Assembly: GCA_012729505.1 (NCBI GenBank)
Contig: JAAYDA010000037.1
Location: forward strand, 1-64,000
Length of the DNA: 64,000 nucleotides
Reading direction: 5' to 3'
Source: Syntrophomonadaceae bacterium
Lineage (GTDB): Bacteria; Bacillota; Syntrophomonadia; Syntrophomonadales; DTU052
The notes under the pieces: generated by a model
Database searches by the model: none
Seen by the model: only the letters and a program-made list of their open reading frames with translations
Told to the model about the DNA's origin: nothing
Shown here: in pieces, positions 33,354 to 60,934 of the stretch
Position numbering within the stretch: position 1 is the stretch's first letter
Layout of the letters: each line of letters begins with the position of its first letter
Position numbers and translations under genes: made by a program

Positions 33354-33489
33354 TTTATCCGATGACTAATCTGCCCTAGGCCCCCCGCCTCTATAGGCGG
33401 CGGGTGCCCAAGGGCAGTTAAGTCCTTGGATCCGTGCGACTAAGATTCAGACGGAGTCAAGACTCCACCTGAATCAAGTCTTACTTTAT
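33354..33489 (+). repeat. Two-hairpin interspersed element, copy 1
   Basis: About 136 bp from TTTATCCGATGACTAA to CTTACTTTAT. Hairpin A: CTGCCCT...AGGGCAG outer stem with inner CCCGCC/GGCGGCGGG. Hairpin B: GATTCAG...CTGAATC with inner GGAGTC/GACTCC, perfectly paired in this copy. Other copies: 44484, 56350, 60760 and a shortened inverted one at 58014. It lies after fdhE. Confidence 0.85.
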
Positions 33490-33491
33490 AG

Positions 33492-33530
33492 TGAGCACGA
33501 AATAAGCTCTTTGCGGCTATTTCGTGCTCA
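33492..33530. terminator. Bidirectional hairpin between fdhE and moeA
   Basis: TGAGCACGAAATA (33492-33504) pairs perfectly with TATTTCGTGCTCA (33518-33530). It lies between convergent fdhE and moeA, directly after repeat copy 1. Confidence 0.7.
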
Positions 33531-33549
33531 TTCATTTTCATGTTACCGG

Positions 33550-34770
33550 TTAAATATTTATCAGATAGGATTTGATCTTCGCACCTGCTTCCAGAGGCGG
33601 GCTTCCGGGAGACAATTCACCCAGCAGATCAAAATTTACCAGGGGAGATGGAAGAAGATTACGTTTCCCTTCATCCTGAACAAAATACGCTATACCGCTC
33701 ACTATCTCAAGTTTGCCCCGCAATAATCTTAACATAGTGTTTTTTCTCTTTATCGGCTCTCTCAACACAGTTTCAATTGCGGGGAGAAAGGTATCGGATA
33801 TTCCGCATAGTTTTCTGATATAAGGCAGGGCTATTCTAAGCAGGCCGACCACTGCAGCTTCCGGGTTTCCCGAAAGGCCAAGAATCAGCTTACCGTTTAA
33901 TACTGCCGCCGTTATTGCCCCGCCAGGCTTCATAGCGATTTTCCAAAACAAGATATCCGCACCTAGCAATGCAGACGCTTTTACTGTCCAATCATAATCG
34001 CTCCCGCAAACACCGCCGGTAGTGATGACCATATCAGAATTATCCAGTGCTGTCTGTAGACGGTCTGCAGTCATATCGGGATTATCGGGTACAATTCCTC
34101 CGTTTAGTGGAATTGCGCCTATGTTTCTCAAATAACTGCTGATGGTATAAAAATTACAGTTATATATTTGGGCAGGGGAAAGAGGGTTCCCCAGTTCAAC
34201 CAATTCAGTGCCGGTATTGATTACAGTGATAAGAGGTTTTTTAACAACGTTTACCTTGGTCATGCCCTGTTCGGCCAATAAACCCATTATAGGAGCTGTA
34301 ATGATGGTGCCTGCACATGCAATCAGCTCACCAATGCCGATTTTATCACCGACGTTAATTATATTAGTTCCTGGCTTTACAGGTGCAAATATTTTCACCT
34401 CGGAGTCTGTGAATTCCGTATCCTCATATTTAATTGTGGTATTAGCGCCTGCGGGCATGGGTGCGCCCGTCAATATCTTTGCTGCCAGTCCCGGCTTTAT
34501 TTCCTTTAAAGATACTTGTCCGGCAGGTATTTCCTCGGTGATAGATAAAATAACCGGTTTTTCAGATTCTGCATCTGCGGTATCCTCTCCGCGAAAAGCG
34601 TAGCCATCGTAGGGGGAACGGTCAAACGGAGGGACCATCTGTACTGAATAAATATCTTCTGAAGTTACACGCCCCAATGAATCCAACAGTGAGATTGATT
34701 CTGCATATAAATTAACCGGTAAAGCCAACAACATATTCTGGCCTTCGTCCGGTTCGATTCCTATCAGCAT
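33550..34770 (-). CDS. moeA: Molybdopterin molybdotransferase MoeA
   Basis: 406 residues, the usual MoeA length. It inserts molybdate into adenylylated molybdopterin. Characteristic segments: DRSPYDGYAF near residue 50, MPAGANTTIKYED, INTGTELVELG, TTGGVCGSDYDW (active-site TGG...DYD) and LSGNPEAAVVGL. It supplies cofactor for the adjacent formate dehydrogenase, though it is on the opposite strand and separately transcribed. Confidence 0.93.
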   Translation of the reverse strand: MLIGIEPDEGQNMLLALPVNLYAESISLLDSLGRVTSEDIYSVQMVPPFDRSPYDGYAFRGEDTADAESEKPVILSITEEIPAGQVSLKEIKPGLAAKILTGAPMPAGANTTIKYEDTEFTDSEVKIFAPVKPGTNIINVGDKIGIGELIACAGTIITAPIMGLLAEQGMTKVNVVKKPLITVINTGTELVELGNPLSPAQIYNCNFYTISSYLRNIGAIPLNGGIVPDNPDMTADRLQTALDNSDMVITTGGVCGSDYDWTVKASALLGADILFWKIAMKPGGAITAAVLNGKLILGLSGNPEAAVVGLLRIALPYIRKLCGISDTFLPAIETVLREPIKRKNTMLRLLRGKLEIVSGIAYFVQDEGKRNLLPSPLVNFDLLGELSPGSPPLEAGAKIKSYLINI

Positions 34771-35107
34771 ACATTAACACTCACTTTCAGTTAATTGGGG
34801 TTTTAGGCAGCTTGTCAGCTAATCATAGTTTGCTTAAATTATATTCGTTTCGGGAAACTTCGGCAAATTTCAGGAATGAGGGGTATTGTTGATTTGCGAT
34901 AATGTCATGGCATAAGTCATCGGGGAAAAGCCATATTCCATAATTAGGAAACAAGGAAAGGCGGCTGGGGCAAATGATTCAGGATTGATTGTGAAGCAGC
35001 CCTGCAGGTATATAAAAGTGCTTAAAACCGGATTATCAGGCGGCCATTCCAACAGATTCATAAAAGAATGGCCGCCTGTTTTATTCATATATATTGGTCG
35101 GTTAGTG
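34771..35107. other. Intergenic region between moeA and OFA transporter
   Basis: 337 bp upstream of moeA and downstream of the transporter gene. It holds one strong hairpin, AGGCGGCCATTC (35038-35049) with GAATGGCCGCCT (35066-35077). The T-rich side (TGTTTTATT) is on the plus strand, although the transporter is transcribed on the minus strand. Nothing else recognised. Confidence 0.5.
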
Positions 35108-36313
35108 CTAAACAACCTTTTCCTGCTGAGGCTGTTTGAGGAATTTGGCCATTACTGCCGCTATCACCAATATGACCGCGGCGGCCAGGTACGCATAGCT
35201 GTAAGAGCCGGTAATATCAACGATTTTCCCGGCTGTCAGCGGTCCGATTATACCTGCTGCCCCAAAAGCAGTAAATACCAGGCCGTAATTGGTACCACTG
35301 TTCTTCAAGCCAAAAAAGTCATAGGTCAGGGCCGGGAAAATTCCCAGCAGTGATCCGTAGGCAAGGCCTGTAATGCATACACCGATGGTTAAAGAAGTCA
35401 TGCTGGTATAATTGCTGAACATAATCATATTAACGGCTTGAAGGAGAAACATCAGAATTAATGTCTGGTTACGCCCGATTCGGTCCGATAAGAAACCACC
35501 TACGACTCGGCCGCTGGAATTGAAAACCGCCAGAATTGCTACCAACGCAAAGCCCCACTTGAGTTGAGCCTGAATATCGGCAATTATAGATATATGTCCT
35601 ATTACCATGAGGCCGGCAATCGCACCAAAACAGTACATTAACCAAATTTGCCAGAACTGGGCGGTACCCATCATTGCAGAAGGTGAAAAATCTTTTTTGC
35701 CTGATGCTTCACCGGCAGCCGGTGCCGGTGTTCCCGGCGGTACATATTCAGCCGGAGGCACAGCCAGGAACTGAGCAAATAAGATCACCAGGCTCCCAAA
35801 TACAATTCCAATGATCAGGAAGGTTTGCCTAACCCCCACGGCATTAATTATGAGCTGAGCGAGAGGTGCCGCATATGCAGCCGCCAGGCCAAGACCGGCC
35901 ACAACTAAGCCGGAGGCCAAACCGCGTTTAGCAGGTGGAAACCACTTGACTGCTGAAGGAATTGTAACTCCGTAGGCTATACCCGATCCGGCCCCTACAA
36001 CAACTCCAAAGAACACTACAAAGCCTGGTATGGTGGTCTGCAGAGATGTCAAGGCCATACCAATAATCAATAATACCCCGCCGGCGGTAGCAACAACACG
36101 GGGGCCGTATTTGTCAAACAGCTTGCCGCCCGGCACCATCATAACGGCCAGCATGGCCAGGGCCACGGTATAAGGAAGCATAGCCTGGGTCTTGGTAAAT
36201 CCCAGTTCCTGTATGAGGGCGGCTGCATATACGCTCCAGGCATATAAAAAACCACTGGCCAGATTAAGGAGAACAGCTGCTATTGTGACGCGCCAACCAA
36301 TATTCTTTACCAA
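35108..36313 (-). CDS. MFS transporter, oxalate/formate antiporter (OFA) family
   Basis: 401-residue, 12-helix major facilitator. The OFA-type N-terminus (LNLASGFLYAWSVYAAAL) and the loop KLFDKYGPR are visible. Members exchange oxalate, formate or other small monocarboxylates; the position near formate dehydrogenase makes formate or a related acid attractive but unproven. The TTG start at 36313 is chosen because AAAGGGG lies 8 nt upstream. A longer frame opening with GTG at 36382 would run through a terminator-like hairpin and lacks a ribosome binding site. Confidence 0.78.
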   Translation of the reverse strand: MVKNIGWRVTIAAVLLNLASGFLYAWSVYAAALIQELGFTKTQAMLPYTVALAMLAVMMVPGGKLFDKYGPRVVATAGGVLLIIGMALTSLQTTIPGFVVFFGVVVGAGSGIAYGVTIPSAVKWFPPAKRGLASGLVVAGLGLAAAYAAPLAQLIINAVGVRQTFLIIGIVFGSLVILFAQFLAVPPAEYVPPGTPAPAAGEASGKKDFSPSAMMGTAQFWQIWLMYCFGAIAGLMVIGHISIIADIQAQLKWGFALVAILAVFNSSGRVVGGFLSDRIGRNQTLILMFLLQAVNMIMFSNYTSMTSLTIGVCITGLAYGSLLGIFPALTYDFFGLKNSGTNYGLVFTAFGAAGIIGPLTAGKIVDITGSYSYAYLAAAVILVIAAVMAKFLKQPQQEKVV

Positions 36314-36345
36314 AACAAACACCCCTTTAATAGTTTTACCCAACA

Positions 36346-36366
36346 AAAAAACTCCCGCAGGAGCAA
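36346..36366 (-). terminator. Terminator-like hairpin in the OFA gene leader
   Basis: On the minus strand CTCC-TGCG-GGAG is followed by seven T, about 35 nt before the TTG start. The stem is short, so attenuation is only a possibility. Confidence 0.4.
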
Positions 36367-36783
36367 GTGCATGTACAGACACAATAACATACTTGTGCCT
36401 GACTATTTGTCTGCCATGCTAACCTTCCTACTCTTTTGTGAACCGATTTTCTACCATACAACCAAACCCTACCAGACTATAATAACAAATTATTAACTCA
36501 CTGCATATAGTTTATATGGCTAATCAGCTTATTCCAGATTAATTGTTTTGCAAATTCGCAAATATCCTGGAAATCATCTCATAAAAAAATAGCTGAATGA
36601 TATAATCAACACATGTCGTCTGGCCAACAGTCTAAAAACCCGCCCACCCATGAAATAAGCCGGATATACAGCAATGTAATGTAAGATAATCGGCTTTCTC
36701 GTTTCTTAAGATCAATCGCAGACTTACAAAGCCGAATAGTATTCGACGGAATGCCGGAGTATAATGGGCATGAGGTGAAGAGT
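36367..36783. other. Intergenic region before GIY-YIG gene
   Basis: AT-rich, about 415 bp. Includes a TATAAT at 36600-36605 without a good -35, and the small inverted repeat TTTGC-AAATTC-GCAAA near 36547. No gene, repeat or RNA recognised. Confidence 0.35.
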
Positions 36784-37128
36784 GTGGATACGCAAAGAAA
36801 AAAAGAACTTATCGCGGAATACAAGAATAGAAAACCGGAAATGGGAGTGATCTCTTTTCGGTGCCAGGCCACCGATGAATCCTTCCTGGGCATTTCCAAG
36901 GATACAAAGGCGGATTTTAACAGTAACAGCGCTAAACTAGGGGCAAATTGCCACCCTAACAAGCGTTTACAGGAGCTATGGAATGAATATGGCAGGAATG
37001 GGTTTGAGCTTGGGGTGGTAAAAAGCTTGGAATATGAAGATCCCAATGAGAATTACACAGCCAAATTGGAAAAATTGCGTGAAGAGTGTTTATCTCAGGA
37101 TAAACTAGCCAAAAAGATCTGGAGATAA
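36784..37128 (+). CDS. GIY-YIG nuclease family protein
   Basis: 114 residues resembling the small GIY-YIG-like proteins of Clostridia (start DTQRKKELIAEYKNRKPEMG; then LGANCHPNKRLQELWNEYG and a charged tail). The canonical GIY and YIG tripeptides are degenerate (GVISF and FLGIS), so nuclease activity is doubtful. The GTG at 36784 is preferred for its GAGGTG 6 nt upstream and the family's usual N-terminus; an ATG at 36751 would add 11 residues. Confidence 0.65.
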   Translation: MDTQRKKELIAEYKNRKPEMGVISFRCQATDESFLGISKDTKADFNSNSAKLGANCHPNKRLQELWNEYGRNGFELGVVKSLEYEDPNENYTAKLEKLREECLSQDKLAKKIWR

Positions 37129-37170
37129 GGATAAGGGCGCACGTAAAGAAATTCGGCGCCGAACCAATCA

Positions 37171-37203
37171 GAAGCACGAACCTCTTAGGAAGATTCGTGC
37201 TTC
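37171..37203. terminator. Hairpin between GIY-YIG gene and katA
   Basis: GAAGCACGAA (37171-37180) pairs with TTCGTGCTTC (37194-37203). Lies between convergent genes; no long T-run on either side. Confidence 0.55.
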
Positions 37204-37236
37204 CATCTGACATCAGCTTGATTAATATAAGGCCTT

Positions 37237-38700
37237 TTATTTAACCTGGTTTATATCTATACCCAGGGCCTTGGCCACGCCTTGGCCATAAGCAGGGTCG
37301 GCCTTCAGACAGTTGCCGATATGTCTTATTTTTATGAAGTCGGGGGCGTCATCCATGGCCCGGGCGGTATTATCGAACAATGCCTGTTGCTGTTCGGCGT
37401 TCATTAACCTGAACAGTTTTCCGGGCTGGGTATAATAATCATCGTCATCCTCCCGGAAGTTCCAATTATCTGCAGGGCCGTACAAAGCCAACGGGGGTTC
37501 TTTATACTCCGGTTGCTCCTGCCATTCCCCAAAGCTATTGGGTTCATAGGGAAGAGTGCTGCCCGCATTATTGTTTACCCTCATCTGACCATCCCGGTGA
37601 TAGCTGTTAACGGGGCACCGTGGAGCATTTACCGGGATTTGGTGGTGGTTGACCCCCAAGCGGTAACGCTGGGTGTCTCCGTAAGAGAAGAGCCGGCCCT
37701 GCAGCATTTTATCCGGCGAAAAGCCTATGCCGGGGACGATGTTGACAGGGTTGAAGGCCGCCTGCTCAACCTCCGCAAACCAGTTGTCCGGATTACGGTT
37801 GAGTTCGAAATAACCTGCCTCTATTAAGGGGAAATCCGCATGATACCATACCTTGGTCAGGTCAAAAGGATTATAGGGCATATTTTGAGCCTGTTCCTCA
37901 GTCATTACTTGGATGTACATGGTCCAGCGCGGGAAGTCGCCTTTTTCGATGCTTTCAAACAAATCTCTCATATGGCTTTCACGGTCTTTGGCAATAACAG
38001 CTTCGGCTTCGGCGTCGGTCAAATTTTTAATGCCCTGCTGGGTTTTAAGATGGAACTTGACCCAAACTCTTTCATTTTGGGCATTAATCATGCTGAAGGT
38101 ATGGCTGCCGAATCCATCCATATGTCTGAAAGTAGCAGGCAGTCCCCGGTCACTCATTACAACTGTAATCTGGTGCAGAGCTTCGGGAAGAGAAGTCCAG
38201 AAGTCCCAGTTGTTAGTGGCGCTTCTCATGCCGGTGCGGGGATCTCGTTTAATAGCGTGATTTAAATCAGGGAATTTCAGTGGATCCCGCAGGAAAAAGA
38301 CTGCAGTGTTGTTACCCACCAGATCCCAGTTGCCTTCCTCTGTATAGAACTTCATAGCAAAGCCGCGGATATCACGTTCGGCATCAGCGGCACCGCGTTC
38401 GCCGGCAACAGTTGAGAATCGCACGAACATATCGGTCTTTTTGCCTATTTCAGAGAAAACCTTGGCTTTGGTGTATTGGGTTATATCGTGAGTTACGGTA
38501 AAGGTTCCATAAGCTCCCGAACCTTTGGCGTGCATCCTTCTTTCGGGTATAACCTCCCGGTCAAAATGAGCCAGCTTCTCTAGGAACCATACATCCTGCA
38601 GGAGAGCAGGGCCTCTGGGGCCGGCAGTCATCGTGTTCTGATTGTCCACCACCGGAGCCCCGGCAACAGTAGTCATTTTCTTCTTATTATTTTCATCCAT
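37237..38700 (-). CDS. katA: Haem catalase
   Basis: 487-residue monofunctional small-subunit catalase, converting hydrogen peroxide to water and oxygen. Distal His57 (RMHAKG), Asn130 in VGNNTAVFF and the haem-ligating Tyr340 ([11 protein letters not shown]) are present. AGGAGG precedes the start. It follows perR by 21 bp on the same strand, so both should be controlled by the PerR box at 39193. It indicates that this anaerobe handles oxygen exposure and can supply haem. Confidence 0.95.
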
Positions 38701-38721
38701 GCTGTAACCTCCTTCTTTAAA

Positions 38722-39162
38722 TTAGTCAGTATTAACCAGTTTTATATCTAAAAGGCATTTAGGACAGATGCCTTTCAAATAAACATTTTTCGAATTAACC
38801 AGATAGCCTTCTAAACCGCCTTTTTTCAAACCATCGTCAATGTTGATGGGGAAATCATAGACATTATGGCAGGATTCACATTTGAAATGCCCATGCTCTT
38901 CCTTTGTGATGTCATACCTGGTCTCATGCTCATCTATGCCGATTTCTTTTACTATTCCTGCCTGTACCAGAGCCTTCATGGTATTGTACACAGTTGTTTT
39001 AGAAAGTGTCGGCAAATCCGGATGCAGTTCATGGTAAATCTGATCAACAGTTTGATGGTGGCGGTTATGAACAAGATATTCCAAGATTTTAAGTCTTTGT
39101 TTTGAGATGCGCAGCCGATGCTTTTTCATCACATCAATTAAATCATCGAACAATGGTTTCAC
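38722..39162 (-). CDS. perR: Peroxide-responsive Fur-family repressor PerR
   Basis: 146-residue Fur-family regulator: winged helix (RISKQRLKILEYL...TLSKTTVYNTMKAL) and dimerisation domain with metal ligands HGHFKCESC and the second zinc pair CPKC. Linkage to katA and the TTGTAAT-N-ATTACAA box argues for PerR rather than Fur. It starts with GTG at 39162 with AGGAAG about 10 nt upstream. Metal-catalysed histidine oxidation would release repression. Confidence 0.88.
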   Translation of the reverse strand: MKPLFDDLIDVMKKHRLRISKQRLKILEYLVHNRHHQTVDQIYHELHPDLPTLSKTTVYNTMKALVQAGIVKEIGIDEHETRYDITKEEHGHFKCESCHNVYDFPINIDDGLKKGGLEGYLVNSKNVYLKGICPKCLLDIKLVNTD

Positions 39163-39192
39163 AACTACACCACTTCCTTAACGAAGTATAAG

Positions 39193-39240
39193 TTGTAATG
39201 ATTACAAGTTAACTATACATGACAATTGCGGTAATAACAA
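39193..39240 (-). promoter_or_regulatory. perR-katA promoter and PerR box
   Basis: On the minus strand TTGTTA (39240-39235), 17-bp spacer, TATAGT (39217-39212). Immediately downstream lies the perfect 7-1-7 palindrome TTGTAAT-G-ATTACAA (39193-39207), close to the PerR consensus TTATAAT-N-ATTATAA. Repressor bound here would block the promoter, giving autoregulation. Confidence 0.82.
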
Positions 39241-39354
39241 TATAGTTTATATTGGAGATTTTTATTTATGGAATAAATGGTTAAGGAAAAATTTATAAAG
39301 GCAAAACTAATTGTCTTCTTCATTAGTCTAAGAAAATGTAAGGGAGGATGGTGT

Positions 39355-39849
39355 ATGCACAAAAAACAGCTGTTTGAAACCTATATAATGCAAAACATTG
39401 ATAGCGCTTATCGTTTTGCATATACATATGCCAAAAATCGTGAGGATGCGGAAGATATCGTAAATGAAAGTGTTCTAAAGGCAATAAAATCAATTAACTA
39501 TTTGCAGAAGTCCGAGCATATCAAACCTTGGTTTTACAGGATAATTGTTAACACGGCATTTACATATCTGAAACGAAGATCCAAAATTACGTATCTGGAT
39601 TATGAAAAAAGCTTTGCGGAAACAGACGGGACCGAAGATGATTACTCCGAACTTACATTAAACAGTATGATTGAAAAATTAGAGCCAAAGTACAAAAGTA
39701 TAATCGTACTTCGATTTTTGGAAGATATGTCGCTAAAGGAGATAGGGCAGATTCTGGATATTAATGAGAACACGGTTAAAACCAGGCTTTACAGGGCGCT
39801 TAAATTATTAAAAATCGATATGGAGGGAGAGGTACATGAAAAGATTTGA
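39355..39849 (+). CDS. ECF sigma factor, SigV-like
   Basis: 164-residue extracytoplasmic-function sigma factor. Region 2 (AYTYAKNREDAEDIVNESVLKAI) and region 4 (LSLKEIGQILDINENTVKTRLYRALKLL) are clear. ATG at 39355 has AAGGGAGG 7 nt upstream; an upstream in-frame ATG at 39277 lacks one and would add an atypical extension. It overlaps its anti-sigma gene by 14 bp, so the pair is translationally coupled. Confidence 0.9.
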   Translation: MHKKQLFETYIMQNIDSAYRFAYTYAKNREDAEDIVNESVLKAIKSINYLQKSEHIKPWFYRIIVNTAFTYLKRRSKITYLDYEKSFAETDGTEDDYSELTLNSMIEKLEPKYKSIIVLRFLEDMSLKEIGQILDINENTVKTRLYRALKLLKIDMEGEVHEKI

Positions 39850-40699
39850 CGATTTAAAGACTGAATATGAAAATATTAAAGCATCAGATGAATTGAAAGG
39901 GAGGGTTAAAAATACCATGACAAGAGAAGATGGGAAAAGAAATGGGCTGAAGATCGGTCTGGGCCTGGCGGCAAGCCTGGCAATTACGGCAATGCTGGTG
40001 GTTAATTTCGTTCCCAGCCTGGCATATGCCATGTCGGACATACCTGCATTTGCACCTATTATAAAAGTAATAACCTTCGGAAAATACGAGAATGTTGATA
40101 AGGGATATAGTGCCAAGGTGGTTACTCCCAAAATAGAAGGGCTGTTGGATAAAGAACTGGAAAAAAGACTGAATGATGAATTGAAGGAGAATGCCAATGC
40201 TATTATTCTGGCATATGAGCAGGATATCAGGGAGTTAAAAGAGGTGTTTGGCGAAGAAACAATTCATATGGGAGTTGAATCGGATTATATTATTAAAACC
40301 GACAACGAAGATATATTGGCCTTAGACGTATATATACTCAATGTCGCAGGCTCATCCTCAACCAAGCATACTTTTTATACCCTGGATAAAAAGACGGGAG
40401 AGCTTCTGAACCTGAAGGGATTGTTCAAGGATAATGCTGACTATGTAACAGTTTTAAGCGATTATATTAAAACGGAAATGATCAGGCGCAACAATGAGGA
40501 AGAAGGGATGTTCTGGGTAGAAAGTGACCCCGAAATGTATCTTGAGGCTTTTCAACAGATTAAAACCGACCAAAACTTCTATATAGACGAGGATGGCAGG
40601 ATCGTTATATGCTTTGATAAGTATGATGTGGCTGCCGGTGCTCAGGGCAGTCCCGAATTTGTTATTCCCGATAACATAGTAAAAGCCATACTAAAATAG
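39836..40699 (+). CDS. RsiV-like transmembrane anti-sigma factor
   Basis: 287 residues: short cytoplasmic N-terminus, one membrane helix (about 43-62, GLGLAASLAITAMLVVNFV) and an extracytoplasmic part with a DUF4163-like region and a C-terminal DUF3298 domain (near residues 200-285), as in RsiV of Bacillus subtilis and Clostridioides. RsiV binds lysozyme and is then cleaved to release SigV. Whether this protein senses lysozyme or another envelope stress is unknown. Ends at a strong terminator. Confidence 0.85.
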   Translation: MKRFDDLKTEYENIKASDELKGRVKNTMTREDGKRNGLKIGLGLAASLAITAMLVVNFVPSLAYAMSDIPAFAPIIKVITFGKYENVDKGYSAKVVTPKIEGLLDKELEKRLNDELKENANAIILAYEQDIRELKEVFGEETIHMGVESDYIIKTDNEDILALDVYILNVAGSSSTKHTFYTLDKKTGELLNLKGLFKDNADYVTVLSDYIKTEMIRRNNEEEGMFWVESDPEMYLEAFQQIKTDQNFYIDEDGRIVICFDKYDVAAGAQGSPEFVIPDNIVKAILK

Positions 40700-40724
40700 T
40701 ATATCGGACATAATCGGCTTTCGG

Positions 40725-40752
40725 CGGCAGCATGGGCTGCCGTTTCTTTTTT
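40725..40752 (+). terminator. Terminator of the sigma/anti-sigma operon
   Basis: CGGCAGC (40725-40731) pairs with GCTGCCG (40736-40742), loop ATGG, followed by TTTCTTTTTT. Confidence 0.85.
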
Positions 40753-40895
40753 GGCAGGGACTTTTTATCACAAGCTGTTTAAATATTTCAAGTTATTCTA
40801 TAATAGTTAAGTAACATTTTACATGGTTAAAAACTGGTGACGGCAGTAGTGTGAAATCTATTTTTGTCGGCGCCATGGGGAATGGAGGAGCAGTA

Positions 40896-41435: not shown

Positions 41436-41473
41436 CACACTATATTGCGGATCAGAGAAAGGATTAGAATTCT

Positions 41474-41731: not shown

Positions 41732-41735
41732 CAGC

Positions 41736-42866: not shown

Positions 42867-42898
42867 AAAGCAGAGACCATGAAAGGAATGGATGGGAT

Positions 42899-43905: not shown

Positions 43906-44023
43906 TCGAGTAAAAAGGTAATTGAAGCTGATTGGGGAATAAATATATAGACCTTTGCCTATCCGGAGGCAGCATGATAACTGTTTGAACTAATTAGTGG
44001 CGTAATAAGAAAGGAGAATGTAT

Positions 44024-44482
44024 ATGCCGGAATATGTTTCTTTGGAAAGTTTTAAAAAAATGGTTGGGCAGGATAATGGCACAACCGAGTGGATAACCAT
44101 TGACCAGGATAGAATTAACAAATTCGCTGATGTAACCGAGGACTGGCAGTGGATTCACGTTGATGTGGAAAAAGCGAAGGATGGTCCCTTTGGAAAGACT
44201 ATCGGCCACGGTTTTTTAACTTTGAGCCTTCTTTCAACCTTTTCCTATCAGGCTAAATATACGCCTGAAGGCTGCAAGATGAGTGTCAATTATGGTCTTA
44301 ACAAGGTGCGGTTCCTATCACCGGTTCCGGTAGGTTCTCGGGTTCGGTCCCACATGGTAATTTCCTCCCTTGAAGAAAAAGGGCCTAACGCATTGCTGAT
44401 GACCATCACCCATACCGTTGAGATTGAAGGCCAGGACAAACCGGCTTGTATAGCCGACGCACTGGGCTTGATGTACTTTTAA
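44024..44482 (+). CDS. MaoC-family (R)-specific enoyl-CoA hydratase/acyl dehydratase
   Basis: 152-residue hot-dog protein. The hydratase-2 motif is visible: DVTEDWQWIHVDVEKAKDGPFG then TIGHGFLTLSLL, with catalytic Asp and His in the WIHVD and IGHG parts. It hydrates a trans-2-enoyl-CoA or related acyl thioester, fitting the acyl-CoA ligases and crotonase elsewhere. ATG at 44024 gives an 8-nt gap from AAGGAG; ATG at 44018 would leave only 2-3 nt. Repeat copy 2 starts 1 nt after its stop codon. Confidence 0.85.
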   Translation: MPEYVSLESFKKMVGQDNGTTEWITIDQDRINKFADVTEDWQWIHVDVEKAKDGPFGKTIGHGFLTLSLLSTFSYQAKYTPEGCKMSVNYGLNKVRFLSPVPVGSRVRSHMVISSLEEKGPNALLMTITHTVEIEGQDKPACIADALGLMYF

Positions 44483-44483
44483 C

Positions 44484-44612
44484 CCGATGACTAATCTGCC
44501 CTAAGACTCCCGCCTCATAGGCGGCGGGTGCCAAGGGCAGTTAAGTCCCTGGCTCTGTGCGGCTAAAATTCAGATGAAGTCAAAACTCACCTGGATCAAG
44601 TCTTACTTTATT
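44484..44612 (+). repeat. Two-hairpin interspersed element, copy 2 (diverged)
   Basis: Starts directly after the MaoC stop codon. The outline is kept (CTGCCCT...AGGGCAG; CTTACTTTATT end), but hairpin B is damaged (GATGAAGT...ACTCACCTGG), making this the most decayed of the five copies. Confidence 0.8.
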
Positions 44613-51970: not shown

Positions 51971-51975
51971 CTATA

Positions 51976-52716: not shown

Positions 52717-53462
52717 TTTCAGTGCTGTCAAAAGAGAACTGGCGGGGTGCATTTTACAGCCTGGTGGTAGTGGTCACCGTCTGGTGGATTGTGTCCTGGC
52801 TTTTGAAAATGCCGATAGTTCCTTCCCCAGGTGCGGTATTAATAAATATTACGCAGATATTTTTCACCAAAATGGATGCCCATGCTCTGGCCAGCCTGGG
52901 GAGAATTGTGGGAGGGATAATAATATCTCTCCTGATCGGGGTTCCTCTGGGCTATTTGATGGGGGCATCTGAAAAGATCAACCGATTTCTGGCCCCCCTG
53001 GTGTACTTTACTTATCCGGTTCCCAAGCTGGCCCTTCTTCCTATTGTTATGCTGCTGTTCGGCTTGGGAGAAGCATCGAAGCTGATCATGATCGTATTAA
53101 TAATTGTCTTTCAGATTATTATTACCGCCCGGGATGCGGTTATTAATATTCCCCAGGAGATATTTCGCTCTCTGAAATCATTGGGTGCCGGAAAGCTGCA
53201 AATTTTTGCTGAGATAATATTCCCGGCTTCCCTTTCGGAGGTTTTGACTGCTACTCGCTTAGCTCTGGGGACTGCGGTCTCTATATTATTCTTTACTGAA
53301 ACTTTCGGAACAGAATATGGAATGGGCTATTTTATAATGGATGCCTGGATGCGGGTAAACTATCTGGATATGTATGCCGGGATAGTGGTTTTGAGCTTTA
53401 TGGGGTTTTGTTTGTTTACTGCTCTCGATTTGATAGATAATCGTCTTAGTTCTTGGCGTTAA
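52713..53462 (+). CDS. ABC transporter permease (SsuC/TauC type)
   Basis: 249 residues with about six membrane helices and the EAA loop (SLGAGKLQIFAEIIFPASLSE, quoted here as two parts SLGAGKLQIF and PASLSE). Partner of the ATPase just upstream, whose stop it overlaps. The first copy of a 20-bp direct repeat includes its stop codon. Confidence 0.9.
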   Translation: MISVLSKENWRGAFYSLVVVVTVWWIVSWLLKMPIVPSPGAVLINITQIFFTKMDAHALASLGRIVGGIIISLLIGVPLGYLMGASEKINRFLAPLVYFTYPVPKLALLPIVMLLFGLGEASKLIMIVLIIVFQIIITARDAVINIPQEIFRSLKSLGAGKLQIFAEIIFPASLSEVLTATRLALGTAVSILFFTETFGTEYGMGYFIMDAWMRVNYLDMYAGIVVLSFMGFCLFTALDLIDNRLSSWR

Positions 53463-53476
53463 GTGATGATCTGCTT
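53457..53476 (+). repeat. 20-bp direct repeat flanking a 370-bp insert, copy 1
   Basis: CGTTAAGTGATGATCTGCTT, repeated exactly at 53846-53865. Includes the TAA stop of the permease. Confidence 0.85.
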
Positions 53477-53845
53477 GCCATTGGTCAGGGAAAATGTCAT
53501 GTTAGTACTAGTGAAAGACACAAATACTTTAGCAGAGATTTGATTCCCGGATTCGACCTGGATTGAATTCCACTTGCTCCCGGAATGAGAACCGGCAAAT
53601 ACAACTGCTCAGTTTCGGCCTCCGAGCAGCACACCGCCAATTCGCCCTCCGTGGCTCAGGAGGCGGACTCAGGACCTCCTGTCCTTCGGCTGCTCTTCTG
53701 CCTCACCTTTGCAGAGGTTTGCTCGGTTCTCATCCCCACGGTCGCTAAGCTGGAATTCATCCCGTGTTTCCTCATTCAACTTCTGAGTTGTTGGGATGAC
53801 ATTTTTCCTGGCGACTTATACCATGACATTATCGCTGATCAACAA
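53477..53845. mobile_element. Imperfectly palindromic non-coding insert between direct repeats
   Basis: 369 bp between the 20-bp repeats. Arms around 53571-53600 (TTGAATTCCA-CTT; ATGAGAACCGGCAAA) are matched in inverted order around 53711-53764 (TTTGCTCGGTTCTCAT; AAGCTGGAATTCATC). Further in, GAGCAGC (near 53625) faces GCTGCTC (near 53690), and the centre has AGGAGG/CCTCCT. No convincing coding frame is present. It looks like a decayed palindromic element inserted or duplicated after the ABC operon. Confidence 0.5.
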
Positions 53846-53865
53846 CGTTAAGTGATGATCTGCTT
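53846..53865 (+). repeat. 20-bp direct repeat flanking a 370-bp insert, copy 2
   Basis: CGTTAAGTGATGATCTGCTT, identical to 53457-53476; lies 52 bp before the FMN reductase start. Confidence 0.85.
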
Positions 53866-53917
53866 TGTAACCGTTGTTAGTGCTGTTGTAGAATGGTGAA
53901 TAAAAGGAGGCATGTAA

Positions 53918-54475
53918 ATGGAAATGATTAAAATCCTGGGTTTTACTGGAAGCCTGCGCCGCGATTCATACAACAAGGCGGCCTTGCGTGCTGCCGGTGA
54001 ATTATTACCGGATGGTGCAATTCTGGAGATCGTTGACCTGGCCCCCATTCCTTTTTTTAATGAGGACCTGGAGGCAGAAGGGGTGCCTCAGGCGGTAGTG
54101 GATTTCAAAGACAAAATCGTGGCGGCGGATGCCTTGCTGATATGCACACCGGAATATAATTATTCGATTCCTCCGGTGTTAAAAAATGCTCTTGATTGGG
54201 CTTCCCGGGGGAAGGACAGCCCTTTGAACGGTAAGCCTGCGGCGATAATGAGCGCTTCCCAAGGGTTGTTTGGAGGGGCCCGGGCACAGTATCACTTGCG
54301 GCAGGTGGCGGTGGTCCTTAATCTTATGCTGCTGAATCGTCCGGAAGTATTCATAATGAGTGCCGCCGGCAAATTTGATCAGGATGGCAAGCTGATCGAT
54401 GATTACAGTCGCAGAGCTATCAGCAATCTTCTTGTGGCCATGGTTGACTGGACCCGGTTATTAAAAAAGAAATAA
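53918..54475 (+). CDS. NADPH-dependent FMN reductase
   Basis: 185-residue flavodoxin-like protein of the ChrR/azoreductase group. FMN phosphate loop GSLRRDSYN at residues 9-17 and the isoalloxazine loop TPEYNYSIPPVLKNALDW near 79. Reduces quinones, chromate, azo dyes or FMN in related proteins. AAAGGAGG precedes; ATG 53918 and 53924 are both usable. Confidence 0.9.
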   Translation: MEMIKILGFTGSLRRDSYNKAALRAAGELLPDGAILEIVDLAPIPFFNEDLEAEGVPQAVVDFKDKIVAADALLICTPEYNYSIPPVLKNALDWASRGKDSPLNGKPAAIMSASQGLFGGARAQYHLRQVAVVLNLMLLNRPEVFIMSAAGKFDQDGKLIDDYSRRAISNLLVAMVDWTRLLKKK

Positions 54476-54550
54476 TCAGCAATAATGGAGTTGGATCGGC
54501 TTGTGTTTTCTGGATTTGATGTTTTTTGATTAACTAACTTGGAGGTATGT

Positions 54551-55261
54551 ATGAACGAACAAATTATTATTGAACAGCGCTTTTGTGGGCCTCCCGAGTC
54601 CGGGAATGGAGGCTACTCATGTGGTATGCTGGCCAATTTCGTAGGTGATTCGGCTGAAGTTAAGCTGATTAGCCCTCCTCCTCTGGATACTCCTTTAACC
54701 GTGGAGAGCAGAGAGGGGCGGTATACTCTGTTAAACGGTGACACTGTTGTGGCTGCGGCGGAAGCGGCAGTGGTGGATATTGAGGTGCCCGCCCCACCTA
54801 CCCTGGCTCAGGCGAGGGAGACAATGGCCGGAGCGGAGATCTTTGAAAAACATAAGTTTCCCACCTGCTTTGTATGCGGCCCCCATCGGGCTGAATGTGA
54901 CGGGCTGAGAATTTTCCCGGGGGCGGTGCAAGGCCGGAACTATGTGGCAACAGAGTGGATTCCTGATGATTCTTTGACTGATGATACTGGATTGGTCAGA
55001 AATGAGATAATTTGGGCGGCTCTGGACTGTCCCGGCGCCTGGGCAGTTTTTGCCGGAAGGACCCGGGCTATTGTTCTGGGAAAATTGGCGGTTCAGATTA
55101 TGTCGAGGATGAAAGCCCATGAGCCTTGTATAGTATTAGGCTGGCAAATCGGTGAAGAAGGCCGGAAATTAATGTGTGGTACTGCTTTGTTCTCGGAAAC
55201 CGGTGAATTGTATGCCCGAGCCCGGGCCACCTGGATTGAGCTGAAAAAAGAATCTCAATAG
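54551..55261 (+). CDS. Hot-dog-like thioesterase-related protein
   Basis: 236 residues. The opening FCGPPESGNGGYSCGML and the central HKFPTCFVCGPHRAECDGLRIFPG resemble acyl-CoA thioesterase-like proteins with two hot-dog halves; catalytic residues could not be assigned confidently. A cytoplasmic acyl-thioester role fits the acyl-CoA genes nearby. ATG at 54551 with TTGGAGG 7 nt upstream. A GGCACATCC/GGATGTGCT hairpin follows at about 55305-55340. Confidence 0.6.
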   Translation: MNEQIIIEQRFCGPPESGNGGYSCGMLANFVGDSAEVKLISPPPLDTPLTVESREGRYTLLNGDTVVAAAEAAVVDIEVPAPPTLAQARETMAGAEIFEKHKFPTCFVCGPHRAECDGLRIFPGAVQGRNYVATEWIPDDSLTDDTGLVRNEIIWAALDCPGAWAVFAGRTRAIVLGKLAVQIMSRMKAHEPCIVLGWQIGEEGRKLMCGTALFSETGELYARARATWIELKKESQ

Positions 55262-55508
55262 GACGAATGAAAAAGCCGGAATGTCATGCCAAGAAGATGG
55301 TTGTAGGCACATCCATTAATAGAACCAGCTGGATGTGCTTACTGTTTCTTCGACTTGTTGTGATAAGAATCCCCAGAGATATTAATTTTGTGTTAATATT
55401 AAACAATGGCATTCGCGCTCCATAGTGGTTGGTTTCGTGGCTGACTCTTATGGACAAGATGCAATCGGAAATAATCAAATATTTATTTTAGTGGAGGGGA
55501 TATCTGTA

Positions 55509-56339
55509 ATGAAAAGAATGTTGACGTTAGCATTATGTGCAGCCCTTTCGGTGGGATTGCTCATAACCGCTGCAGGCTGCGGCCAAGCACCCCAGGAAAA
55601 GCAAACCTTTAAAGTAGGCCTCGAATGTGGTTATGCTCCATTCAACTGGACTCAGGTAGATGACAGCAACGGCGCGGTACCCATTTCCGGCACCAACCAA
55701 TTTGCCGGTGGCTATGATGTTGAAATAGCTAAGATTGTTGCCGAAGGTCTGGGCAGGGAACTGGTTATTGTGAAGACAGCCTGGGATGGTCTGCCACCAG
55801 CAGTGCAGTCCGGCAGTGTTGACGCAATTATTGCAGGTATGTCCCCGACGGCGGAGCGCAAGGAATCCATTGATTTTTCTGATCATTACTATAAATCCGA
55901 TCTGGTAATGGTGGTAAAAAACGGATCGGCCTATGAAAACGCCACCAGCATTCAGGACTTTTCCGGGGCAAAAATAACTGCCCAGCTCAACACTTTCCAT
56001 TACTCAGTCATTCCTCAAATCGACGGGGTAATCCAGCAGACGGCCATGGATGATTTTCCCGCCATGCGCGTGGCCCTGGAATCTGGTATTATTGATGGGT
56101 ATGTATCCGAAAGACCTGAAGGAATTTCGGCTTCGGCGGCCAACGCTAATTTTGTTATGGTTGAATTCGATGAAGGACAAGGGTTTGTAGCATCAGATGA
56201 TGATGTTGCCATAGCAGTTGGTCTTAAAAAAGGCAACCCGGATGTAACTGAGATAAATGAGATTTTAGCCGGAATATCTGAAGCTCAGAGAGTAGAAATG
56301 ATGGATGCTGCCATCAGAAACCAACCAGCTGCCCAATAA
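55509..56339 (+). CDS. Polar amino acid ABC transporter substrate-binding lipoprotein
   Basis: 276-residue family-3 solute-binding protein with lipobox TAAGC (Cys24) and segments FKVGLECGYAPFNW, GYDVEIAKIVAEGLG and GMSPTAERKESIDFS. It binds a polar amino acid outside the membrane. ATG at 55509 with GGAGGGG 8 nt upstream. It is separated from its permease gene by repeat copy 3. Confidence 0.92.
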   Translation: MKRMLTLALCAALSVGLLITAAGCGQAPQEKQTFKVGLECGYAPFNWTQVDDSNGAVPISGTNQFAGGYDVEIAKIVAEGLGRELVIVKTAWDGLPPAVQSGSVDAIIAGMSPTAERKESIDFSDHYYKSDLVMVVKNGSAYENATSIQDFSGAKITAQLNTFHYSVIPQIDGVIQQTAMDDFPAMRVALESGIIDGYVSERPEGISASAANANFVMVEFDEGQGFVASDDDVAIAVGLKKGNPDVTEINEILAGISEAQRVEMMDAAIRNQPAAQ

Positions 56340-56349
56340 TCATCGCTGC

Positions 56350-56486
56350 TTTATCCGATGACTAATCTGCCCTAAGACCCCCGCCGCCTATAGGCAGCGT
56401 GTGCCCAAGGGCAGTTAAGTCCCTGGATCCGTGCGACTAAGATTCAGATGGAGTTAAAACTCCACCTGAACCAAGTCTTACTTTAT
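56350..56486 (+). repeat. Two-hairpin interspersed element, copy 3, inside an operon
   Basis: Begins 11 bp after the binding-protein stop and ends just before the GGAG of the permease. Hairpin A is altered (GCC-TATA-GGC core); hairpin B has GGAGTT/AACTCC, a paired U-A where copy 1 has C-G. The position suggests it affects the binding-protein to permease expression ratio. Confidence 0.85.
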
Positions 56487-56503
56487 TGGAGTGTAATCAA
56501 TAA

Positions 56504-57277
56504 GTGGAAAGAACCTTCTTGGAATGGGTAATATTAATTTGGAACAGCAACTGGTCCCTATTTCTTATAGGGGCCAGAAATACTCTATTTATTGCTTTGA
56601 CCGGTACAATTATTGGATTTGCCATTGGTATTGTGATTGGAATAATCCGGACTATTCCCATCGATGACAACACCCATCCAGTGGCCAGGATCGCCTATAA
56701 GATTATCAACTTCCTATTATTGTGTTATATCGAAGTATTCCGTGGCACTCCCATGATTGTTCAAGCCATGGTGGTATTTTATGGCGCCGCCTGGATATAT
56801 AATATTCATTTGTCTCCAATCACAGCGGGAATTTTTATTGTCTCTATCAATACCGGAGCGTATATGGCTGAGATAGTCAGAGGCGGTATTCTTTCCGTGG
56901 ATAAAGGCCAGTTTGAAGCAGCTCATTCCATCGGTATGACCCACTTCCAAACTATGGCCAACATTGTTCTGCCTCAGGCTATACGTAATATTTTGCCGGC
57001 AACCAGTAATGAGTTTGTAATCAATATAAAGGACACCTCGGTGCTGAGCGTTATCTCGGTTACGGAGCTGTTCTTCCTGTCTAAATCGGCGGCGGGGGTA
57101 AACTTTGCGTTCTTCCAGACCATGTCGATTACCTGTGTTATCTATTTTATTATGACTTTTACCGTCACCCGAATACTAAGGTATATTGAAATAAAGATGG
57201 ATGGACCGTCAGTATTCACCATCCATGGTTCCCAATCGGTTCCTGAAGCACAAATCAGGATTGTCAACAGGGAGTAA
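56504..57277 (+). CDS. Polar amino acid ABC transporter permease
   Basis: 257-residue HisM/GlnP-type permease with about five helices. EAA-loop region EAAHSIGMTHFQTMANIVLPQ (seen as EAAHSIGMTHFQ and NIVLPQA) and the N-terminal GARNTLFIALTGT. Begins with GTG at 56504; GGAG at 56488-56491 is about 12 nt upstream, a somewhat long spacing. Coupled to the ATPase gene 3 nt downstream. Confidence 0.9.
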   Translation: MERTFLEWVILIWNSNWSLFLIGARNTLFIALTGTIIGFAIGIVIGIIRTIPIDDNTHPVARIAYKIINFLLLCYIEVFRGTPMIVQAMVVFYGAAWIYNIHLSPITAGIFIVSINTGAYMAEIVRGGILSVDKGQFEAAHSIGMTHFQTMANIVLPQAIRNILPATSNEFVINIKDTSVLSVISVTELFFLSKSAAGVNFAFFQTMSITCVIYFIMTFTVTRILRYIEIKMDGPSVFTIHGSQSVPEAQIRIVNRE

Positions 57278-57280
57278 GAT

Positions 57281-58018
57281 ATGGACAAGATTATTGAAAT
57301 CAGACATCTGCAAAAATCATTTGGCACGAATGTAGTTTTAAGAGATATTAATTTTTCTGTCAGTAAAGGTGAAGTGGTTTGTATCATCGGTTCCAGCGGT
57401 TCCGGAAAGTCTACTCTGCTCCGCTGTCTGAATCTGCTGGAATATCCTTCCGGCGGCGAAATACTATATCACGGCAATAACATTCTGGAACAGGAAATGA
57501 GCAATGCAGTTTACAGAGCGAAGATGGGCATGGTTTTTCAGCAATTCAACCTTTTCAACAATCTGAATGTCCTTGATAATTGTATGGTGGGACAGATCAA
57601 AGTGTTGAAAAAGGATCCGGCCTCGGCCAAAGAAAAGGCTATGGAATATCTGGAGCTGGTAGGTATGTCACAGTTTATCACGGCCAAACCCAACCAGATC
57701 TCCGGTGGACAGAAGCAGCGGGTGGCCATAGCCCGGGCACTGTCTATGGAGCCGGAGGCGTTGCTGTTCGATGAACCCACCAGCGCCCTGGATCCTGAAC
57801 TGGTTGGCGAAGTATTGAAGGTTATGAAAAAACTGGCCAGAAGCGGACTTACCATGTTGGTGGTTACTCATGAGATGGGTTTTGCCCGGGATGTTGCTAA
57901 TCGGGTTGTATTTATGGACAGCGGCGTTATTGTGGAAGATGATGTGCCTGAGGTAATATTTAATAACCCCAATAACGAAAGAACCCGGGAATTTTTAAGG
58001 CGGACCCTCGAAGAATAA
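57281..58018 (+). CDS. glnQ: Polar amino acid ABC transporter ATPase
   Basis: 245-residue ATPase: Walker [11 protein letters not shown]-loop MVFQQFNLF, signature ISGGQKQR, Walker [16 protein letters not shown]-loop VVTHEMGFA. Drives uptake with the two genes upstream. Its stop codon lies inside the shortened repeat copy 5. Confidence 0.93.
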
Positions 58019-58075
58019 AGTAAGACTTGATTCAGCTGGAGTTTTGACTCCATCTGAATCTTAGTCATCGGATAA
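58014..58075 (-). repeat. Two-hairpin element, copy 5, inverted and shortened
   Basis: The reverse strand reads TTATCCGATGACTAAGATTCAG and continues through hairpin B to AAGTCTTACTTTATT. Hairpin A is missing: 74 bp between the two GACTAA motifs of a full copy have been lost, leaving one GACTAA. It overlaps the end of glnQ. Confidence 0.82.
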
Positions 58076-58091
58076 TCGATGAGATTATGAA

Positions 58092-58129
58092 AAAAGCCCT
58101 GCCGGGCCAGTTGAATCGGCAGGGCTTTT
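58092..58129 (+). terminator. Terminator between glnQ and the GGDEF gene
   Basis: AAAAGCCCTGCCG (58092-58104) pairs with CGGCAGGGCTTTT (58117-58129). The A- and T-rich ends make it usable in both directions. Confidence 0.8.
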
Positions 58130-58150
58130 GCGTATGACGGGCAAGACTGT

Positions 58151-59086
58151 TTAACGAGTGCCTATAGAGGAAGATATTCCGGTCAATCGCTGGACAATTC
58201 GGTTTCGACCTGCTTTCTTGGCAGTAAACAAAGCTTCATCAGCTCTCTTGATTAATTCCTCCGAACATTCTCCACCTCGCGGGATCATGGTGGCTACTCC
58301 CAGACTGATAGTGATCAGAGGAATGACCGGTGAACTCTCATGAGGAATTGCCAGTATCGATATTTTATGTTTAAACCTCTCAGCCAGGAGCATAGCCCCG
58401 GTTGCATCAGTCTGAGGCATTAGGGCCACAAACTCATCACCGCCCCACCTGCCCAAAAAGTCGCCGGGTCTGCGCAAAGTGTTGCTCAATTGACAGGCAA
58501 CCTTCTTGAGACAGGAATCTCCCGCCAGATGTCCGTAAGCGTCATTGTACTCTTTGAAGTGGTCAATATCGACTATTATAAAGGAGAGCGGGTCGCCGGA
58601 ACGGAAAGATCGTCTCCACTCCTGAGCTAAGGTTTCGTCGAACCGTTTGCGATTGGGAAGTCCGGTCAGACCATCCACCAGACTGCTTTCCATCAGCCGA
58701 TCATAATACAGCTTCATACAGATATGATTCTTCACTCTTGCTTTCATCAGGGATGGGTTAAATGGAATAGTAATATAGTCAGCCGCTCCCAGTTCCAGGC
58801 CACATGCTTCATCAGCTTCACTGTTTAATGAGGTCAAGAAAATAACAGGAATATCCTTCCATTCGTTGGTGGCCTTGATTTCTTTACAGACCTCAAAACC
58901 ATTCATTTCGGGCATGACCACATCCAGCATAACCAATTGCGGCAGAGGATGGGAGGCCAGGATTTGCAGAGCTTCCGGGCCGCATTTGGCGGTAATAACG
59001 TTGTAATCTTCCCCAAGTACGTCGCAGATAATTGCAAGATTCAGAACATTATCATCCACAACTAATACAGTGGGTGGATCTCCCAT
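58151..59086 (-). CDS. Response regulator with diguanylate cyclase domain
   Basis: 311 residues: N-terminal receiver domain (VLVVDDN; phosphoacceptor Asp in LVMLDVVMPEMNG; Lys position replaced in YITIPFNP, where most receivers have KPF) and a C-terminal GGDEF domain with intact active site RWGGDEFVAL. An intact GGDEF should make cyclic di-GMP. An RxxD inhibitory site was not evident. ATG at 59086 lies 10 nt after TGGAGG; an upstream TTG is too close to it. No partner kinase in the window. Confidence 0.9.
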   Translation of the reverse strand: MGDPPTVLVVDDNVLNLAIICDVLGEDYNVITAKCGPEALQILASHPLPQLVMLDVVMPEMNGFEVCKEIKATNEWKDIPVIFLTSLNSEADEACGLELGAADYITIPFNPSLMKARVKNHICMKLYYDRLMESSLVDGLTGLPNRKRFDETLAQEWRRSFRSGDPLSFIIVDIDHFKEYNDAYGHLAGDSCLKKVACQLSNTLRRPGDFLGRWGGDEFVALMPQTDATGAMLLAERFKHKISILAIPHESSPVIPLITISLGVATMIPRGGECSEELIKRADEALFTAKKAGRNRIVQRLTGISSSIGTR

Positions 59087-59267
59087 AGCTAACAAGCCTC
59101 CAATAAACCGGCCAGGCCGGTATTCGTGATGATGGAAATTATTAACGGATTAGTCGATTACACTATTAATTTTGTACGTCATGCCTATTCCCTATAATAA
59201 ACCAAAACCATCAGGGGAAGTACACTTTCTTAATATATTTCTTAAACATATTATGATAAAAAAATGT

Positions 59268-59295
59268 CACCATCCGGCGCGAAAGCCGGATGGTG
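59268..59295 (-). terminator. Terminator of the stalk-domain gene
   Basis: CACCATCCGGC (59268-59278) pairs with GCCGGATGGTG (59285-59295), loop GCGAAA. On the minus strand it is followed by a T-run (ATTTTTTT), so it ends the gene at 59317. Confidence 0.85.
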
Positions 59296-59316
59296 TTACT
59301 CTGAACAAACCTTTCG

Positions 59317-60597
59317 TTATAACGGTTGTTGCAGGGACTCTTCTATAGGCATGATATTTTGTATATCTGCGGCATCGCTTACATCGGGGAAGGTGATGGG
59401 TTCGCCCATATCATACATTTCAAAGAAGGCATCTACCTGAATTGACATATTGATGGCATTGGATGTGACGCCATCAATAGTGACAGGCGGCAGATTAAAA
59501 TCAACCTGGGCGGCTATATCCATATAATCAGTGATCATTGTGGACTTATTAATCCAAGAAGCGTAAGTCATATCAGCTTGAATGTTGTCGAAAAGAGTCT
59601 GTATCATGGCATCTGCCTCGGGAATGCCGGTATCATACATTGCGGGCATTTGACCCATTAAGCTCTGAAACAGTTTTTCAAAGCTGTCAGGGGTAAGGGT
59701 GATATTAACCACCCAGTACTCTTGATCTTCCTTGTTTTGATCGTTGCCTAAATTAATTATGGCTCCAAAATCTTTCATCATTTCCATTGATTTTATGGGG
59801 TCGTTGGCATCAGCGGATGCCTCCATCAAGGCTTGAATATCCAGGCCCTGAAGGTCCATCTTAAACCAGCCTTCCTGCCCGGGGACAGTCATATACATGC
59901 CATCCTGGTTCATGAATGTTTCGGATATCATAGCTGTGGGCATATCAGAAACGCCCTCAATTGGAGGCATATCAACTGTAGTCTTGACGTAAATCAACAC
60001 TGGCTCCTGCTGCATGGCCATATCCATGACCATATTCATATCCATGCTTTGCGGTGTGCCCTCCGGTGCGGACTCTATTCCCATGCTAAGTTTCATGTCA
60101 GTATTAACTTTATATGTATTGTATTCAAGCATAGCTTCAGTGGATTTCAGCATAAGTTCATCTGCTGTCATTCCCTGCCGCTGTTCGGAATAGGAAACGG
60201 ATACGGTTTTACTTTCCTGCTGCCAGCCAACGGAGGTGCCAAAGGCTTCATAAACAGATCGAAGTGGAACCAGTATTTCTCCATTAACCAGTTCAGGGGC
60301 TTTGGATAAAGTAAGCTGTTGATCATTGAAAACAGCCAAGTTGCTTCCCAGTGTAAGTGTCAGGGTATCTGAGTTTTCCGTAATGATAATTATATCATTA
60401 TCCACGGTTATGTCGGCACCCAGTACTTTGTCTACCATATCCAGCGGAACCATTGTGATACCATCAGCTAATTGCAGGGTGCTACTGGGGACGTATGGTT
60501 TGTCGTTGATGGTAAAATTAACGTTAGCCATAGCCGGACTGGCGACGACAAATACAAAGAGGAACGTGAAAAAAGCAACAAGTTTCTTCTTAAGCAT
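59317..60597 (-). CDS. Exported protein with copper-amine-oxidase-type stalk domain
   Basis: 426 residues with a signal peptide ending near MANVNF. The stalk domain (about 28-130: NDKPYVPSSTLQLADGITMVPL...EILVPLRSVYEAFG) is a common surface module in Clostridia. The C-terminal 290 residues resemble the LppX/LolA-like DUF6612 group that may bind lipids. Methionine-rich stretches (MDMNMVMDMAMQQ) are notable. ATG at 60597 with GGGAGG upstream; ends at a terminator. Confidence 0.7.
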   Translation of the reverse strand: MLKKKLVAFFTFLFVFVVASPAMANVNFTINDKPYVPSSTLQLADGITMVPLDMVDKVLGADITVDNDIIIITENSDTLTLTLGSNLAVFNDQQLTLSKAPELVNGEILVPLRSVYEAFGTSVGWQQESKTVSVSYSEQRQGMTADELMLKSTEAMLEYNTYKVNTDMKLSMGIESAPEGTPQSMDMNMVMDMAMQQEPVLIYVKTTVDMPPIEGVSDMPTAMISETFMNQDGMYMTVPGQEGWFKMDLQGLDIQALMEASADANDPIKSMEMMKDFGAIINLGNDQNKEDQEYWVVNITLTPDSFEKLFQSLMGQMPAMYDTGIPEADAMIQTLFDNIQADMTYASWINKSTMITDYMDIAAQVDFNLPPVTIDGVTSNAINMSIQVDAFFEMYDMGEPITFPDVSDAADIQNIMPIEESLQQPL

Positions 60598-60934
60598 AAG
60601 CAGACCTCCCATTAATAAATCTCCTAATTATTATAACGTAATATCCGTCAATATAAAACTTACATTTCTTAGTGTTATCCCGACCCCCCCTGTAACACTG
60701 GAAACTTTAGAAAAAAACGTGTATTTTAGTATTAATAATTTATGATTATTATTCGATGTTTTATCCGATGACTAATCTGCCCTAAGACCCCCGCCTCTAT
60801 AGGCGGCGGGTGCCCAAGGGCAGTTAAGTCCCTGGATCTGTGCGACTAAGATTCAGATGGAGTCAAAACTCCACCTGAATCAAGTCTTACTTTATTATGC
60901 ACATTGTTAAAGAAATGTTGGGGAGGGTTCTGGA
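60598..60934. other. Divergent promoter region containing repeat copy 4
   Basis: 337 bp between two divergent surface-protein genes. More than a third is repeat copy 4; the remainder is AT-rich with a run of C at 60681-60689. No clear promoter boxes picked. Confidence 0.4.
60760..60896 (+). repeat. Two-hairpin interspersed element, copy 4 (closest to consensus)
   Basis: 137 bp, intact hairpins A and B and both GACTAA motifs (60770-60775, 60844-60849). Unlike the other copies it lies upstream of a gene, in a divergent intergenic region. Confidence 0.87.

Follow-up and report, generated by a model that had tools for sequence, protein, structure and literature searches.

The window analysed here, 64,000 nt of contig JAAYDA010000037.1 from a Syntrophomonadaceae bacterium, carries five copies of a ~137-bp element with two hairpins, and the question that it raises is whether such a short element is mobile, and by what means, or is a structured RNA. 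A preliminary description had likened it to palindromic elements derived from IS200/IS605 and had named the RNA as the alternative. Our covariance model recovers the five copies, four of full length and one short and inverted, and none further in the window (Table 1).

Table 1. Element copies in the window and parts of copy 1
Feature	Position	Strand	Description
Copy 1	33354..33489	+	Full-length, 136 nt; FdhE-like gene (+) on one side, MoeA-like gene (-) on the other
Copy 2	44479..44611	+	Full-length; 5' pentamer TTAAC overlaps stop codon of MaoC-like gene (44018-44482)
Copy 3	56350..56486	+	Full-length; in gene cluster of an amino-acid ABC transporter, flanked by genes for solute-binding protein and permease
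Short copy	58015..58076	-	Single hairpin, 62 nt
Copy 4	60760..60895	+	Full-length; flanked by two divergent genes
5' TTTAT pentamer (copy 1)	33354..33358	+	Target side; already present in relatives' empty sites
Hairpin A (copy 1)	33371..33417	+	Outer stem CTGCCC/GGGCAG and variable inner stem
Middle segment GGAT (copy 1)	33428..33431	+	Pairs with ATCC at 5' end; most relatives have GGATAA with TTATCC
Hairpin B (copy 1)	33438..33480	+	Basal stem GACT/AGTC, conserved core GGAGT-loop-ACTCC
3' TTTAT (copy 1)	33485..33489	+	Element-borne
Circle junction, predicted			...CTTACTTTATCCGATG...

Copies 3 and 4 match copy 1 at 92% (E 7e-51) and 96% (E 3e-59), respectively. The fixed ends TTTATCCGATGACTAA and CTTACTTTAT are as originally described, except that copy 2 starts with TTAACCCGATG instead. 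The short copy, whose TTTAT end provides the stop codon of an ABC ATPase gene (57281-58018), equals the full element minus everything between two GACTAA direct repeats. Internal direct repeats (GACTAA/GACTAA, CTAAG/CTAAG, ATCC/ATCC) likewise delimit the deletions in short copies of the source genome, and the short one-hairpin forms arise by internal deletion between such repeats. That all copies lie in the 33-61 kb part is true within the window but not of the 2.45 Mb source genome, in which the covariance model (with rough E-values, the model being home-made) finds about 43 full-length copies and about 16 that are shortened or truncated, some 60 in all on many contigs; as per-genome searches score the best candidates only, copy numbers here and below are lower bounds. 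Several contigs end within a copy, indicating that the assembly breaks on the repeat, and two copies stand in tandem with one TTTAT common to both. Two one-hairpin copies in genome G000 (C49:24962 and C71:35933) start with TTTATCCAGGGACTAAG, the first part of which is the reverse complement of the element's middle GTCCCTGGATAAA; they look like a separate short subfamily.

The family extends far beyond this genome. In a survey with model R1, 37 of the 399 phylum genomes, from 30 of 268 genera, gave matches, as did 30 of 301 Bacilli; most carriers are multicopy, while none of the four genomes from the family to which the source belongs had the element. Over 100 stretches of Firmicutes genomes contain the hairpin B core GRTGGAGTYAAAACTCCAYCT, among them stretches from Desulfosporosinus, Clostridium ragsdalei, C. 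ljungdahlii, Alkaliphilus, Tindallia, Anaerovibrio, Pelosinus, Sporomusa, Oceanobacillus and Syntrophomonas, and the loci inspected hold gene-less elements, some of them 5'-truncated. Clostridium copies measure ~128, 179, 230 and 281 nt, differing by extra 51-nt units, and some Bacilli members 150-160 nt. The family thus spans Clostridia, Negativicutes and Bacilli, patchily and in multiple copies. The window element had no match in IMG/VR or in phage or plasmid collections; one Bacilli-type member matches a Pseudalkalibacillus plasmid, and two Bacilli-type members used as queries found no plasmid of the B. cereus group.

Base pairing was evaluated on 27 diverse sequences over 31 pairs in five helices (5' end TTATCC with inter-hairpin GGATAA; GAC/GTC; the hairpin A outer stem; the basal stem; hairpin B), with shuffled and slid versions as controls. 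Pairing holds in 90.5% of cells, against 72.6 +/- 1.0 in shuffles and 30-47% in slid versions; both sides have changed in 23 of the 31 pairs, and there are 147 double-change cells compared with 51.6 in shuffles. The basal stem, for instance, is GACT/AGTC here and TTCT/AGAA in Clostridium. The two-hairpin pairing is thus shown to be conserved by covariation. The compensatory change first noted in hairpin B, C-G in copy 1 and U-A in copy 3, can be confirmed but is weak evidence, as most copies have C and A, unpaired, at this position; one hairpin B position is mostly mismatched in Clostridia-type copies (A-C in 9 and G-T in 4 of the 27 sequences overall). The strong covariation sits elsewhere in the structure and becomes visible once relatives are added. 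The covarying hairpins lie near the termini, as first described, and the termini themselves are not inverted repeats, TTTATCCGATGACTAA and CTTACTTTAT having only a weak imperfect match of the GACT type.

Two variants deserve mention for their hairpins. At G007:C23:48199-48331 hairpin A is kept and hairpin B is unrelated (CCGTTCAGCG...CGCTGAACG), which suggests that hairpin modules have been exchanged. In two genera, at L053 and L055 (G005) and L035 (G040), positions 1501-1540, a hairpin B with an altered but still paired stem (TTGAGATGGAGTCAAAACTCCACCTCAA) lies in a conserved intergenic stretch adjoining a small gene (MTMPEFPPQQ...), and may be a captured or related element.

Mobility was examined by joining the flanks of a filled site and searching for the joined sequence in sister species. 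This comparison, which the preliminary description had called for, gave eight exact empty sites in related genera, each with a single TTTAT at the junction and nothing else altered. Five came from C. ragsdalei against C. ljungdahlii, with elements of 128 to 229 nt, and three from Syntrophomonas G005 against G009 (G009 being S. wolfei subsp. methylbutyratica and G005 a close relative of it), which have the other seven loci in common. Elsewhere a copy interrupts a tnpB gene (L363, G066:C18 190512-190775) that has intact paralogues in the same genome, and another is nested in a different repeat whose other copies are uninterrupted; the latter repeat (L112 flank) is palindromic and ~200 nt long, and occurs dozens of times in C. 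ljungdahlii and C. ragsdalei (G042, G043). Insertion is thus shown to be precise and 3' of a single TTTAT-like pentamer, the element bringing its own 3' TTTAT and the target not being duplicated. Mobility of the window's own copies would follow by homology.

The two ends differ in a way that bears on the mechanism. Among 42 copies of the source genome, the pentamer deviates from TTTAT at the 5' end in 15 and at the 3' end in 4 (p=0.008), and in none of the 15 copies with a deviating end is the deviation common to both ends. From these unequal and never-matching deviations we infer that the 5' pentamer comes from the target, that the 3' TTTAT is carried by the element, and that a target-site duplication is unlikely; in other taxa, both ends deviate about equally (9/45 and 7/45). 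A miniature element of the DDE type with a fixed TTTAT target-site duplication would have TTTAT at both ends and one in the empty site, as seen, but the lack of terminal inverted repeats and the mismatch in 15 of 15 such copies, which already goes part of the way to refuting it, make it highly improbable. As to target choice, the middle GGATAA segment was considered as a programmable guide and rejected: it covaries with the 5' end but does not predict the target, Desulfosporosinus having its GGCTAA copies at TTTAT and its GGATAA copies at TTTAG, and the source genome favouring TTTAT although its middle segment is GGATC. A preference for terminator hairpins, hinted at by some S. wolfei copies, was rejected as well (in the source genome, 4/42 copies and 28/338 control sites, p=0.77).

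The exact empty sites also weigh heavily on the RNA alternative, that of a structured regulatory RNA or 3'-UTR element which duplication has spread and whose mobility is incidental. Its strong covariation, the intergenic location of the copies and the position of some of them directly at stop codons (44479 and 58015 in the window) are what such an RNA would lead one to expect; against it, copies occupy all four gene contexts in the source genome, nine of them between divergent genes, no Rfam model matches at the gathering score and nothing credible appears at permissive thresholds, and the wobble strand polarity is weak, G-T being mildly commoner than A-C in the stems (33 versus 19 cells). An RNA is therefore improbable as the primary nature of the element, while individual copies could still have an RNA role.

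The copies are not randomly oriented in the source genome, where the top strand of the element lies on the G-rich strand, i.e. with the sequence of the lagging-strand template, in 37 of 42 full copies (p=4e-7), replication direction being derived from local GC skew and genes from crude ORF calls. Gene direction does not explain this bias, since among the 15 copies flanked by divergent or convergent genes, a neutral setting in this respect, 14 are on the G-rich strand. The same holds for 9 of 10 S. wolfei loci. A universal strand bias is refuted by the Firmicutes tested outside Syntrophomonadales (39/80), and the orientation bias is therefore a lineage feature. IS200/IS605 elements prefer the lagging-strand template as target (PMC6006769, PMC7290912), and the IS605 of Halanaerobium is also without orientation bias (PMC7290912).

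We did not find Y1_Tnp or TnpB in the source genome, and copy-rich Desulfosporosinus sp. PR has only a 36-aa Y1 fragment. Y1 is present in 28 of 37 carriers of the phylum sample, being absent in nine, and in 193 of 362 non-carriers (p=0.009); the association is weak and might reflect genome size. At the carrier loci examined, a non-exhaustive search, no TnpA or TnpB element shares the ends of ours: the IS200-type genes have other hairpins alongside and the TnpB elements have other ends. RAYT-like Y1 genes of 250-300 aa (S. wolfei, G007 and Alkaliphilus; L183, L178, L176, L181, L194) are flanked by GGGGACGGTTC-type repeats, which are a separate REP-like family, and the one Alkaliphilus element near a Y1 gene is what chance predicts in a multicopy genome. 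Of what was first suggested, mobility, hairpins near termini that are not inverted repeats, and exact empty sites are all borne out, but derivation from IS200/IS605 is not, given a source genome without Y1 or TnpB and other ends at the Y1 and TnpB genes examined in carriers.

On balance, these are copies of a non-autonomous mobile element, probably mobilised in trans, while folded and single-stranded, by a putative enzyme that works like those of IS200/IS605 (HUH Y1). IS200/IS605 elements carry subterminal hairpins and enter, with no duplication, on the 3' side of a tetra- or pentanucleotide (PMC7290912, PMC6006769). A transposase acting in trans would recognise both hairpins on one single-stranded strand, which in Syntrophomonadales would become available as the lagging-strand template at the replication fork; the recognised strand would be excised and then inserted behind TTTAT. 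The copy number and distribution, eight empty sites, covariation, non-matching pentamers and orientation bias all point to this explanation, as do the copy inside tnpB, the nested copy and the tandem copies with one TTTAT. It is weakened by the missing Y1 in the source genome and in nine carriers of the phylum sample, the mere fragment in Desulfosporosinus sp. PR, the other ends in carriers, the lack of bias elsewhere and a middle segment that is not predictive of the target in Desulfosporosinus; moreover, site-specific recombination at a 5-bp core would give identical empty sites.

Such recombination, at a TTTAT core via a double-stranded circle and with a tyrosine or serine recombinase in trans, is in our opinion unlikely. 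One TTTAT in empty sites and two in filled ones are as it would predict, heterologous cores would yield unequal ends, the source genome is without Y1, and a mechanism resembling site-specific recombination has been proposed for bcr elements (PMC6542083). Alone, though, it leaves the orientation bias of Syntrophomonadales unexplained and does not account for conserved imperfect hairpins that require single strands, and a search that was not systematic has so far linked no recombinase gene to the element. We give slightly less credit still to a different single-strand enzyme outside the Y1 family. It would fit the structure and orientation of the element, and the many copies in complete-looking genomes without Y1 or TnpB (G000, G160, G184, G327, G061), but Y1 is somewhat enriched in carriers, and a burst could have been followed by loss of the enzyme.

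As a rule, mobile repeats that lack genes are known from a single species group. In this family a single structure is maintained through covariation in Clostridia, Negativicutes and Bacilli alike, and two culturable genera have exact empty sites. A hunt for the enzyme can start from its consensus structure and defined target, in the laboratory organisms Clostridium ljungdahlii and Syntrophomonas wolfei.

Compared with known systems, the element has in common with IS200/IS605 the pentanucleotide 5' of the insertion, the subterminal hairpins and, in Syntrophomonadales only, an apparent lagging-template bias, but it has no gene, and its 5' end finds its pairing partner 3' of hairpin A, unlike the known guide, which is located 5' of the foot of the hairpin (PMC6006769). 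Like REP/REPIN sequences (TnpA-REP, RAYT), it consists of intergenic multicopy hairpins in genomes where RAYT-like genes are common; unlike them, it does not flank those genes, which the GGGGACGGTTC-type repeats do, and the source genome has no such gene. Like PATEs, it is without terminal inverted repeats, has palindromes close to its ends, duplicates no target, is too short for a transposase and undergoes internal deletions mediated by repeats (PMC3119063). PATE palindromes match IS605-type transposons, while no IS605-type transposon with the element's ends was found at the loci examined.

The element also resembles repeats of the B. cereus group, bcr1 and group A, which are likewise short, multicopy and intergenic, with conserved secondary structure and no known transposase (PMC6542083, PMC3446304, PMC2267715). 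A TTTAT motif is tied to bcr1 mobility, our element has TTTAT at both ends, and the length of bcr1 is close to the 150-160 nt of some Bacilli members; bcr elements have been reported from the B. cereus group alone, whereas the family described here extends over three classes. Compared by description rather than by sequence, the two could plausibly belong to one superfamily. A bolder and rather doubtful extension is that of a modular hairpin superfamily across Bacillota, including bcr1, which would be moved as folded single-stranded DNA by an unrecognised enzyme outside the Y1 family.
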